Positions 2,243-5,071 of a DNA stretch of 64,000 nucleotides are shown here, one piece after another. Within the stretch, counting starts at the first letter, position 1; every line of letters starts with the position of its first letter. Under the pieces are notes generated by a model. That model searched no databases and had not been told where the DNA came from. It saw only the letters and a program-made list of their open reading frames with translations. This DNA comes from Bacteroidota bacterium (lineage in GTDB: Bacteria > Bacteroidota > Bacteroidia > B-17B0 > Aurantibacillaceae): positions 1 through 64,000 of the forward strand of contig JAQZBQ010000007.1 of assembly GCA_029237825.1 (NCBI GenBank), in the 5' to 3' direction. The position numbers and the translations under genes are program-made.

Positions 2243-2824
2243 ATGAAATCAGTAAAATTGAGCGGTTCGCCGAGAGCGAACGTAGGAAAAGTAGACGCAA
2301 AAGCAATTCGTGAAAAAGGTCACGTGCCATGCGTAATTTATGGTGGAAAAGAGCAGATCCATTTTCATGCAGATATCCGTGCATTTAAACCGGTAATCTT
2401 TACTCCAAATGCACACATCGTAGAAATCGACCTTGATGGTAAAGTATACAAAACCGTATTACAGGAAGCACAATACCACAAAATTAACGACCAGTTAATC
2501 CACGCCGATTTCTTAGAAATCGTTGAAGGTAAACCGGTAACGGCTAATATTCCAATCGTTATCGTCGGACAGTCAGAAGGTGTGAAAAAAGGTGGTAAGT
2601 TAGTAGTGAAATTGCGTAAATTAAAAGTTCGTGGTATCGCTGACAAATTACCTGATACCATCGAAATCGATATCTCTAAATTAGACATCGGTGATTCAAT
2701 TGCTGTTGGTGACATCAATGTAAAAGACACAACGTTATTGAACGCTAAAAACGTATCTGTAGTTTCAGTTACTACTACACGTGCGGTTGCTGCAGCTGAG
2801 AATGCTGCTCCGGCTAAAAAATAA
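2243..2824 (+). CDS. rplY: 50S ribosomal protein L25 (Ctc/TL5 type)
   Basis: A 193-residue bL25 of the long (Ctc/TL5) form. The 5S rRNA-binding domain occupies roughly residues 1-90 (GSPRANVGK and a VPCVIYGG segment near 29-36 are typical). It is followed by the TL5 beta domain (about 95-180) and a short Ala-rich tail. It binds 5S rRNA in the central protuberance of the large subunit. It directly follows prs and is closed by a good hairpin terminator. No anomalies are visible. Confidence 0.96.
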   Translation: MKSVKLSGSPRANVGKVDAKAIREKGHVPCVIYGGKEQIHFHADIRAFKPVIFTPNAHIVEIDLDGKVYKTVLQEAQYHKINDQLIHADFLEIVEGKPVTANIPIVIVGQSEGVKKGGKLVVKLRKLKVRGIADKLPDTIEIDISKLDIGDSIAVGDINVKDTTLLNAKNVSVVSVTTTRAVAAAENAAPAKK

Positions 2825-2844: not shown

Positions 2845-2882
2845 AATCCTCTTTCGGCTAGTTCGGAAGAGGATTTTGTTTT
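2845..2882 (+). terminator. rho-independent terminator after rplY
   Basis: Arms ATCCTCTTTCG and CGGAAGAGGAT (one mismatch) around a short loop are followed by TTTTGTTTT. It begins 20 bases after the rplY stop codon. Confidence 0.75.
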
Positions 2883-3034
2883 ATACAATAGTTTTTCCAG
2901 GAATAAATTGGGGTCATGCGGCGGAGGCCGCACCGGGCTGTCGCTGCAATCTCTGCGCCGCAAACACAGAGTATTTTCGCTTGCATCCCTTGCCCAAATG
3001 ATCTTTTCTAAGTGAATTCATATATGCAAATGCG

Positions 3035-3170
3035 CACTAAATTTTTATGATCACCTGCGTGAGTGATAGAGCGCAAATCCTTTTTGTGTTCCTTTCAAAA
3101 AGATTGGAGTGATAGCCCGGCCCGCAGGGACACGCCAAAATAAGTATTGAAATTGAAAAAGAATGAGCTG
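3035..3170 (+). ncRNA. structured intergenic repeat, copy 1 (Flavo-1-like candidate)
   Basis: GCGTG (3057-3061) pairs with CACGC (3131-3135) to close the element. Inside, CTTTTTG (3080-3086) pairs with CAAAAAG (3096-3102), and the flanking AAT/ATT extends the stem past a bulged C. A conserved GGAGTGATAGCCCGG segment precedes the closing strand. The same architecture recurs at 3273. From memory it resembles the Bacteroidota Flavo-1 RNA motif, but that identity needs a covariance-model test. The transcribed strand is inferred. Confidence 0.5.
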
Positions 3171-3272
3171 GAAAATATTTGGGAAACAACGCCGGTCACT
3201 TTAGAAAATGCGCGCAGGCCTGCCAAAACGCGGCGGAGATGGGCAGTAATTTTTGGTTTTTCAGTTGAGCAA

Positions 3273-3410
3273 CACTAAATTTTTAACGATCACCTGCGTG
3301 AGGGATAGAACGGAAATCCTTTTTGTGTTCCTTTACAAAAAGATTGGAGTGATAGCCCGGCCCGCAGGGACACGCCCAAATAAGTATTGAAATATAAAAG
3401 AAATGAGCAG
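3273..3410 (+). ncRNA. structured intergenic repeat, copy 2 (Flavo-1-like candidate)
   Basis: Direct repeat of the 3035 element, 238 bases downstream and roughly 90 percent identical by eye. The closing stem is GCGTG (3296-3300) with CACGC (3371-3375). The inner hairpin is CTTTTTGT (3319-3326) with ACAAAAAG (3335-3342), one pair longer than in copy 1. Differences fall mostly in loops and flanks. Confidence 0.5.
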
Positions 3411-3457
3411 GATACTAGAAGAAAAAAGTAGTGAGAATTTATTTTGCTCTACAGATC

Positions 3458-3492
3458 AAAAAAAAGCGGTTGCCTCCTGAGAAACAACCGCT
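3458..3492 (-). terminator. rho-independent terminator after rng
   Basis: On the minus strand AGCGGTTG and CAACCGCT form a perfect 8-bp stem with a ~12-base loop, followed by a run of eight T. It starts about 23 bases after the rng stop. Confidence 0.8.
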
Positions 3493-3514: not shown

Positions 3515-5071
3515 TTAGATCACGATTTCATCCAGATCCTTATTCAAAAAATGGTACTCCATGAATGAATAACTGTCAGACTTAATTACTTTAATCCATT
3601 GTTTGTATTCAAAATACCATTTCCACTGCTTACTTCTGAAAAGGCCACCTTGTTTCAAATACCCTTCAATGTATGGGTGAACACAAAGCGTAATGTCTTT
3701 TGCAGCTTGTTCTTTTATAATAAAGCGTAGGGCATTTTCAATTTGTTCAACAAATAAAATACTTGGCTGAACTTTACCGGTACCGTTACAGCTCGGGCAG
3801 GATTCTAACACTTCCACATTTACCTCCGGACGAAGTCGCTGGCGCGTAATTTGAATCAAACCAAACTTACTAGGCGGTAAAATATTATGGCGGGCCCTAT
3901 CCGACTTCATTTCCTCCTTTAACTTGTCGAACAGTAATTTTCTGTTCTCCGGGTTGTGAAGGTCTATAAAGTCAATGACGATAATTCCGCCCATATCCCG
4001 AAGACGTAACTGGCGGGCAACCTCAACAGCTGCTTCCAGGTTAACCTCCAGGGCATTTTCTTCCTGGGATTTATCACTCTTGGCACGGTTCCCACTGTTC
4101 ACATCAAACACATGAAGTGCTTCCGTATGTTCAACTACCAGATAAGCACCGCTTTTCATAAACACCGTCTTTCCAAACAGTGATTTAATTTGACGGTCAA
4201 TTCCAAAATTATCAAAAATTGGAACCTTGCCTGTATAATGCTTCAGGATATCCACCTTGTCAGGCGAAATGGTTCTGATATAGGTTTTAAGATCATCGTA
4301 AACGCGTTCACTGTTCACGTGAATGGCATTAAAGGATGCATTTAAAAAATCCCGGAGTATGGCATTTGTCCTGTCAACTTCACCTAAAAGACGAAAAGGT
4401 GGTTCGGACGTTTGCAAAGCTTTAAAACATTCATCCCATTTCGAAACTAAATCCGCCACATCGCCCTCAATATCCGAAACCGATTTCCCTTCCGCCACTG
4501 TTCGCACAATCACACCAAAATTCTTAGGTTTAATGCTCTGAATTAATGCCTTCAAGCGCGTCTTTTCTTCACTGCTTCTGATCTTTGAAGAAACGGAAAC
4601 TTTATCTGAAAAAGGAATCAGTACAATGTATCTCCCGGCAATCGAAATTTCTGTTGTAATGCGCGGACCTTTAGAAGAAATAGGTTCTTTTGCAACCTGA
4701 ACCAATACATACTGTCCAGGCTTAACTGCCTCATTGATTTTACCGTCTTTATTAATATTTCCTTCATTCTTAAAATACATCAGATTGCTTACGTTCTGTT
4801 TACCCGAACGTACCGCATCGACGTATTTGAATAATGAATTAGCCTGTGGGCCTAAATCAAGGTAATGCAAAAATGCATCCTTTTCGTATCCCACATCCAC
4901 AAAGGCAGCATTCAATCCGGTCATTACCTTCTTTACTTTGCCCAGGTAGATATCGCCTACCGAAAATCTAATGTTATTTTTTTCTTTATGAAGTTCTATT
5001 AAACGTTTATCGTTTAACAGCCCTATAACAACTTCGTTAGGCGTAGAATTTATTACGAGTTCTACGTTCAC
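3515..5071 (-). CDS. rng: ribonuclease G/E family endoribonuclease
   Basis: Single-strand-specific endoribonuclease for rRNA 5'-end maturation and mRNA decay. At 518 residues it is close to RNase G and lacks the long C-terminal scaffold of RNase E. The S1 RNA-binding domain starts at FSVGDIYLGKV (about 36-46) and carries a polar insertion near 88-112. The metal-binding aspartates expected in the catalytic domain are in FDVNSG (D322) and IVIDFIDL (D366). The zinc-link motif CPSCNGTG (424-431) probably holds subunits together. It is a single gene with its own terminator; 250 bases separate it from the upstream small gene, so its own promoter is likely. Confidence 0.93.
   Translation of the reverse strand: MNVELVINSTPNEVVIGLLNDKRLIELHKEKNNIRFSVGDIYLGKVKKVMTGLNAAFVDVGYEKDAFLHYLDLGPQANSLFKYVDAVRSGKQNVSNLMYFKNEGNINKDGKINEAVKPGQYVLVQVAKEPISSKGPRITTEISIAGRYIVLIPFSDKVSVSSKIRSSEEKTRLKALIQSIKPKNFGVIVRTVAEGKSVSDIEGDVADLVSKWDECFKALQTSEPPFRLLGEVDRTNAILRDFLNASFNAIHVNSERVYDDLKTYIRTISPDKVDILKHYTGKVPIFDNFGIDRQIKSLFGKTVFMKSGAYLVVEHTEALHVFDVNSGNRAKSDKSQEENALEVNLEAAVEVARQLRLRDMGGIIVIDFIDLHNPENRKLLFDKLKEEMKSDRARHNILPPSKFGLIQITRQRLRPEVNVEVLESCPSCNGTGKVQPSILFVEQIENALRFIIKEQAAKDITLCVHPYIEGYLKQGGLFRSKQWKWYFEYKQWIKVIKSDSYSFMEYHFLNKDLDEIVI

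Follow-up and report, generated by a model that had tools for sequence, protein, structure and literature searches.

The intergenic region between the gene for ribosomal protein L25/Ctc (rplY) and a converging ribonuclease gene in a Bacteroidota genome contains several copies of a structured repeat, and the question raised by this locus is whether such an element acts as an RNA or at the level of the DNA. The window, i.e., the whole stretch of 64,000 nucleotides that was analyzed, had been covered by a preliminary description, in which two tandem copies of a conserved element were reported and Flavo-1 was offered as a possible identity. This guess proved right: a cmscan search of the 64-kb window returned a single over-threshold match, to Flavo-1 (RF01705), for copy 2 (E 8.9e-6), and the permissive Rfam threshold adds copy 1 and a copy on the minus strand, both of which score below the curated cut-off (Table 1). 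By sequence, the window repeat is Rfam Flavo-1, and a chance match is excluded. A clear identity with a transposon end, the other origin raised in the preliminary description, was looked for and not seen; the data resemble dispersed, doublet-forming DNA repeats.

Table 1. Features of the Flavo-1 cluster and its neighbors, in window positions. R1 is a full-element model built from 28 sequences, including all three window copies.
Feature	Position	Strand	Evidence
rplY, ribosomal protein L25/Ctc gene; upstream neighbor	2243..2824	+	NCBIfam NF004132, 239.9 bits, over cut-off
rplY intrinsic terminator	2845..2875	+	terminator scan; repeat search
Third Flavo-1 copy, GATGC/GACAGC subtype	2908..2997 (R1; Rfam 2927-2999)	-	Rfam 29.3 bits; R1 70.4 bits (R1 training member)
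Spacer between heads of minus copy and copy 1, 61 nt	2996..3056	.	head-to-head pair
First locally duplicated segment, contains copy 1	3035..3172	+	140-nt alignment, 91.4%
Flavo-1 copy 1: outer stem, main hairpin, short second hairpin	3055..3139 (Rfam 3048-3126)	+	Rfam 29.7 bits, below cut-off; R1 69.2 bits (R1 training member)
Second locally duplicated segment, contains copy 2	3273..3412	+	140-nt alignment, 91.4%
Flavo-1 copy 2	3294..3379 (Rfam 3281-3366)	+	Rfam 42.6 bits, cut-off 42; R1 83.2 bits (R1 training member)
Intrinsic terminator of converging RNase E/G gene	3465..3492	-	terminator scan
Rne/Rng family (ribonuclease G/E) gene; converging neighbor	3515..5071	-	TIGR00757, 445.2 bits, over cut-off

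The two direct copies exist as reported, with starts 239-240 nt apart. Since they are alike over ~140 nt including their flanks, they look like the result of a local duplication. The minus-strand copy had been overlooked; it stands head to head with copy 1. The T-run/A-run inner hairpin, the bulged C and the conserved unpaired purine blocks are all present in both direct copies, and the GCGTG/CACGC closing stem can be recognized as a possible outer stem that is supported by comparison and not by energy. Indeed, in its minimum-energy fold, copy 2 pairs CCTGCG with CGCAGG, not GCGTG with CACGC. Against shuffled versions of itself, copy 2 is clearly the more stable (z -2.1, both as RNA and as DNA), while the folding energies of copies 1 and 3 are not clearly better than those of their shuffles (z -0.6 to -1.0). 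A longer inner stem in copy 2, attributed to matching changes, had further been described. This does not hold, as the 5' strand (TTTTTGTGTT) is identical in copies 1 and 2 and only the 3' side gains an A (TTTAC versus TTTC); at the foot of the main hairpin, copy 1 is one pair short, its GTG facing CCC, while GGG occupies this place in copy 2. As the change in copy 2 is a one-sided insertion, the argument for covariation from these two copies is rejected: copies 1 and 2 alone exhibit none, and covariation comes from other copies.

To these belong 63 of the 64 matches in the window's own genome (one match of 14.1 bits was omitted) and 60 copies from relatives, taken from the best of the matches listed, which together were aligned. 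The full element exceeds the Rfam model: an outer stem encloses two hairpins, the Flavo-1 main hairpin and, just ahead of the stem's 3' arm, a small second one. Variants of the outer stem, whose 3' partner was selected for complementarity, include GCGTG/CACGC, GCGTT/AACGC, GCACA/TGTGC, GCGCA/TGCGC, GCGCC/GGCGC and others. RNAalifold, applied to 28 chosen copies, recovered the three parts unprompted; in 17 of the 22 pairs, both partners vary. In this alignment, from which the structure used for the pairing statistics was itself derived, 96.9% of 610 cells are paired, compared to a mean of 80.8% after shuffling and 36.8-51.2% after sliding; the covariation score reaches 0.471 versus 0.161 for shuffled alignments. 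One of five covariation measures, “further pair types,” was equalled by 28 of 500 shuffles. The main hairpin, by which Flavo-1 is recognized, covaries in the 28 chosen copies. The proposal that the structure is under selection therefore stands in part: selection or maintenance is supported by the many copies, and the two-copy argument by which it had been reached fails. An older form that lacks this outer stem (TAGCC...GCTCC) exists as well, e.g., in the 15 copies sampled from G057 and in two own-genome copies on contig C23.

Some individual copies have peculiarities of their own. Other palindromes, for example CCGCCAGCTGGCGG, are found within the end loops of certain Flavo-1 hairpins (L311, L321, L326, L338, L341 and others), as though foreign repeats could be accommodated there. 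Members of the GCACA subfamily have longer flanking repeats in common (GATACTTTTTGCAGCC..., GAAGCTGATATAA...) and form tandem clusters near contig ends (L068 on C19, L071 on C16, L070 on C1 and L074 on C15).

Rfam lists Flavo-1 under the entry type “Gene; sRNA,” and the strong covariation is in agreement with a structured non-coding RNA gene or a cis-regulatory RNA. In the accessible part of Weinberg et al. (PMC2864571), the motif is classed as a probable biological RNA that is unlikely to be cis-regulatory. The composition of the main hairpin was compared with that of tRNAs. In the survey of outer stems, 96 of the 123 copies had a recognizable head, and 89 of these were parsed for counting the six main-hairpin pairs; the parsing pattern required a 3' A and G beside the main stem and used some 3' letters as anchors, so that the A-G and T-A columns were excluded. 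Five of the six pairs beat all 1000 shuffles, with no excess for pair b3. Among 534 cells, 497 are Watson-Crick, 14 G-T, 6 A-C and 17 other, compared to 301, 29, 0 and 6 of 336 cells in 28 distinct own-genome tRNAs. Relative to Watson-Crick pairs, G-T is rarer in Flavo-1 than in tRNA (Fisher P 1.6e-4), and A-C is relatively more common (P 0.003); both values are to be read with the points that tRNA finding itself tolerates G-T and that Flavo-1 copies share ancestry. Taken on its own, the preference for G-T over A-C (14 to 6) is not significant (P 0.12), and a single pair accounts for nine of the 14 G-T cells, indicating that some RNA-like behavior remains. The wobble-poor pairing leans, short of proof, toward a folded DNA.

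The genomic setting offers little to an RNA gene. The two converging terminators bracket the Flavo-1 cluster of the window; 1.1 such matches are expected by chance in the terminator scan, and a hairpin with a T-run similar to the rplY terminator is, as judged by eye, also found 3' of rplY in congeners. The Bacteroidetes-type promoter motif TAnnTTTG, the one motif examined for an upstream excess, occurs upstream of 4 of 123 copies versus 3.7 expected by shuffling, and a sigma-70 promoter scan gave three weak sites versus 1.4 expected. Published transcription is mixed: in the accessible part of an RNA-seq study of F. psychrophilum, some 5' transcribed regions coincide with Flavo-1 hits, yet hits occur sense or antisense to transcripts alike and many lie outside transcribed regions (PMC9723704). 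The notion of an RNA element tied to a host gene, which the preliminary description had entertained, thus finds no support at this locus. Together with the occurrence of copies in either orientation, frequently as head-to-head pairs, and the range from 0 to 83 copies among congeners, these observations make the reading as a structured or cis-regulatory RNA an unlikely one.

Copy numbers are high and patchy. In the own genome, the Rfam model yields 64 matches at E<=10, of which 26 exceed the gathering score, and model R1 yields 77 at E<=0.01. R1 counts span the aforementioned range across 11 congeners, and with the Rfam model, a match at E<=1e-4 was obtained in 32 of 60 relatives, with counts between 0 and 60 in 19 congeners. 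Flavo-1 thereby forms dispersed intergenic palindromes in many copies, as REP/REPIN-type elements do. Among 33 clusters with ORFs on both sides, 13 lie between convergent, 16 between co-directional and 4 between divergent genes (by eye, from crude ORF calls). Occupation of individual sites differs between species. At the typA-deaminase junction, gene order is kept in 17 of 20 genomes, and copies are present in two of these 17, the own genome and G008, and absent from the other 15; the left arms of the two are alike, suggesting that the insertion may predate their split. Likewise, no copy was detected at 17 congener RNase-gene loci or 18 rplY loci (a few of which have less than 400 nt downstream). 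Two further observations concern these junctions. In G008, a long array of GTCACACTGAGCGGAGTCGAAG-type repeats adjoins the Flavo-1 copies in the typA-deaminase gap (L251), and the sequence downstream of the RNase gene varies between species of the genus (rng loci L088-L105), a sign of much rearrangement. A phage origin of the window cluster was dropped, as a blastn search of positions 2880-3460 against 50,697 phage records gave no match.

The arrangement of the window's minus-strand copy and copy 1 is a recurrent one. Among the 123 copies, 92 have a recognizable head and 91 of these have enough upstream sequence; an inverted partner head at <=100 nt upstream (<=2 mismatches) was found for 30 of the 91, a count to which both arms of one doublet may contribute, compared to 28 of 4550 in shuffled sequences. 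Spacers of 44-50 nt separate 23 of the 30 partnered copies from their partner. Partner frequency depends on the head, with 17 of 36 for GCGTG and 2 of 23 for GCGTT (P 0.002). Doublets are frequent in the G017 and G008 samples, and none of the nine counted sampled copies from G045, G015 and G009 has a doublet partner. Within the own genome, doublet spacers range from 35 to 78 nt, the window pair being an intermediate case. Doublets of two different arm subtypes show no clear excess by eye.

A scan of 84,980 genomes for head pairs with 35-65 nt between them identified 31 stretches, 23 of which were judged to be Flavo-1 doublets by eye. Ten of the 31 were scanned with Rfam and four of them showed Flavo-1; one that did not, L333, was retained by eye. 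Eight stretches were dropped, three of them without an Rfam scan. A spacer of 46-50 nt is present in 17 of the 23 doublets (P 1.3e-9 versus uniform). These doublets are not independent, as 12 come from one record set and six from another, and the preferred spacing is found in 9/12 and 6/6 of these, respectively, and in 2/5 elsewhere. A preferred doublet spacing is thus clear in two genomes and looser elsewhere. Both outer ends could be located in 17 of the 23 doublets, which measure 229-288 bp and have AT-rich flanks, mostly with TTT before GGGCG and A-rich sequence after CGCCC. Direct repeats of at least 5 nt were found at none of these 17, whose ends were set by pattern and where old duplications may have decayed. 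Target-site duplications, the mark of a DDE-transposon MITE, were accordingly not seen at these 17 doublets. The head pattern is also fitted by a different palindrome, GGGCGCGTTATCCCTCACGC, in three Opitutae records (L313, L329 and L336), with heads 45-47 nt apart; Rfam finds no Flavo-1 in these three.

Structure, copy numbers, doublets and species-specific site occupation underlie the reading that is favored here, with a probability of roughly 0.65: Flavo-1 arms are a small DNA repeat, non-autonomous and either still mobile or once so, whose action is on the DNA itself, as with REP, REPIN and BIME elements. In this model, one strand of each arm folds into the outer stem, the main hairpin with its bulged C and purine internal loops, and the second small hairpin. 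Such arms, single or joined head to head in inverted doublets that measure some 230-290 bp, would insert into intergenic DNA and then be duplicated locally, as for window copies 1 and 2. The form that is recognized would be single-stranded DNA, and the arms would be moved by an enzyme supplied in trans, which may have been lost from the window genome. Counted against the mobile-DNA reading are that no transposition event was observed, that no enzyme was found, that most window copies fold no better than shuffles and that the tight doublet spacing derives mainly from two genomes.

A broader proposal is put forward as a long shot: in Bacteroidota, Flavo-1 arms would constitute a novel type of DNA recombination site that is used as a folded single strand and mobilized in trans, either by a tyrosine recombinase resembling integron integrases or by another enzyme outside the REP-transposase family. 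If the recombination-site reading were true, what Rfam lists as a small RNA would really be the substrate of a DNA recombination system. Integron attC sites are folded single strands with bulges and variable end loops, and Flavo-1 arms could, in a similar way, be handled by a tyrosine recombinase of the integron-integrase-like type. One such gene exists on own-genome contig C1, where the recombinase scores just over the cut-off of NF040815 and below that of TIGR02249, and a Flavo-1 copy lies 79 nt upstream of it. In G046, a copy is located 107 nt upstream of an integron-integrase-like gene, and in G018, 245 nt before the start of homology, the two genomes having totals of three and two copies. 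At 30 integrase loci, model R1 detects a copy at three, versus 0.28 expected (P 0.003); for low-copy genomes, two loci have a copy versus 0.026 expected (P 3e-4). These probabilities are post hoc, and once intergenic clustering is allowed for by a factor of five, they rise to 0.17 for all loci and 0.0075 for low-copy genomes. The Rfam model had found no copy at the 19 of the 30 integrase loci that were scanned with it, for which reason the integrase was set aside, and it was partly revived by the three of 30 found with the fuller R1. Yet 27 of the 30 loci lack a copy, the orientation of the copy relative to the gene varies among the three loci, and the copy-rich genomes G002, G006, G009, G015, G017, G033 and G057 have no integrase homologue at E<=1e-40. 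The three neighboring copies are only suggestive as evidence for a partner, and an integron-integrase-like enzyme as the handler of Flavo-1 is considered improbable.

Some features of the integrase loci deserve mention in their own right. Flavo-1-type elements lie upstream of integron-integrase-like genes at L233:1126-1256 and L235:2711-2812, in genomes with totals of only two and three copies. On contig C1 (L070:267-6919), the integrase-like gene is followed by DUF6791/ThiF, multiubiquitin, DUF6527 and HTH/IrrE-type genes, and Flavo-1 copies are located near both ends of the contig. The genes after the integrase look like ubiquitin-like, possibly defense-related cargo.

The reading as an ordinary REP/RAYT member, moved by a REP-associated tyrosine transposase, would account for doublets, intergenic clusters and patchy copy number, and the accessible part of PMC6006769 describes, for Bacteroidetes, a subclass of these transposases with atypical secondary structures on either side. 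This reading is very improbable, as Y1 transposase (PF01797) is absent from the own genome and from 7 of 15 genomes with at least eight Flavo-1 matches and does not track the copies, the REP transposase model NF047646 finds none in the own genome, G009, G015, G016, G017 and G019, and none of 42 partly overlapping loci around Y1/REP transposase genes carries a Flavo-1 element. Reverse transcriptase (PF00078) was found in none of the own-genome proteins and in 7 of 20 genus genomes, with no fit to copy number, and all three enzymes were rejected as partners, their presence not tracking Flavo-1.

The accessible parts of the literature on Flavo-1 (PMC2864571, PMC9723704, PMC9029176) contain no mention of doublets or mobility, and a review table includes Flavo-1 among abundant bacterial small RNAs (accessible part of PMC9029176). 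If the mobile-DNA reading is true, a family counted as an abundant bacterial small RNA would be a mobile DNA repeat, its covariation would reflect folded DNA, and searches for structured RNAs would need to treat palindromic repeats differently. It would also raise the question of which enzyme moves the arms where REP transposase is absent.

Compared to known systems, the element shares its sequence and main hairpin with Rfam RF01705, including a copy over the gathering score, and differs in the additional outer stem and second hairpin, the head-to-head doublets and the behavior of a dispersed DNA repeat. With integron attC sites it has in common the folded single strand, the bulges, the variable end loop and, for some copies, the position beside an integron-integrase-like gene, whereas no cassette-like ORFs lie between copies in the clusters examined, most integrase loci have no copy, and the end sequences and box order of Flavo-1 do not seem to fit the attC core consensus. 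CGTC-tagged palindromic repeats likewise occur mostly as head-head dimers, are known in Bacteroidetes and have no dedicated transposase (accessible part of PMC3733652), but consist of 8-9 bp stems with 4-5 nt loops and a CGTC tag. The arms of Flavo-1 greatly exceed this size, and by eye neither a GTAG nor a CGTC tag was seen at the hairpin foot or ends of the aligned copies. REPIN and BIME elements, as described in the accessible parts of PMC3116915 and PMC3733652, are also imperfect intergenic hairpins that occur as singles, inverted doublets and clusters with patchy copy number, whereas Flavo-1 arms are longer (about 85-115 nt), adopt a three-part fold and have no association with REP transposase. 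As the definition of REPINs calls for a REP transposase in the vicinity of the inverted doublets (accessible part of PMC3116915) and none lies near Flavo-1, it is not a member of the REPIN/BIME family. Its arrangement is nevertheless REPIN- and CGTC-like, and with the transposase test failed, Flavo-1 is filed as a variant repeat of that kind, while by sequence it is still Flavo-1.
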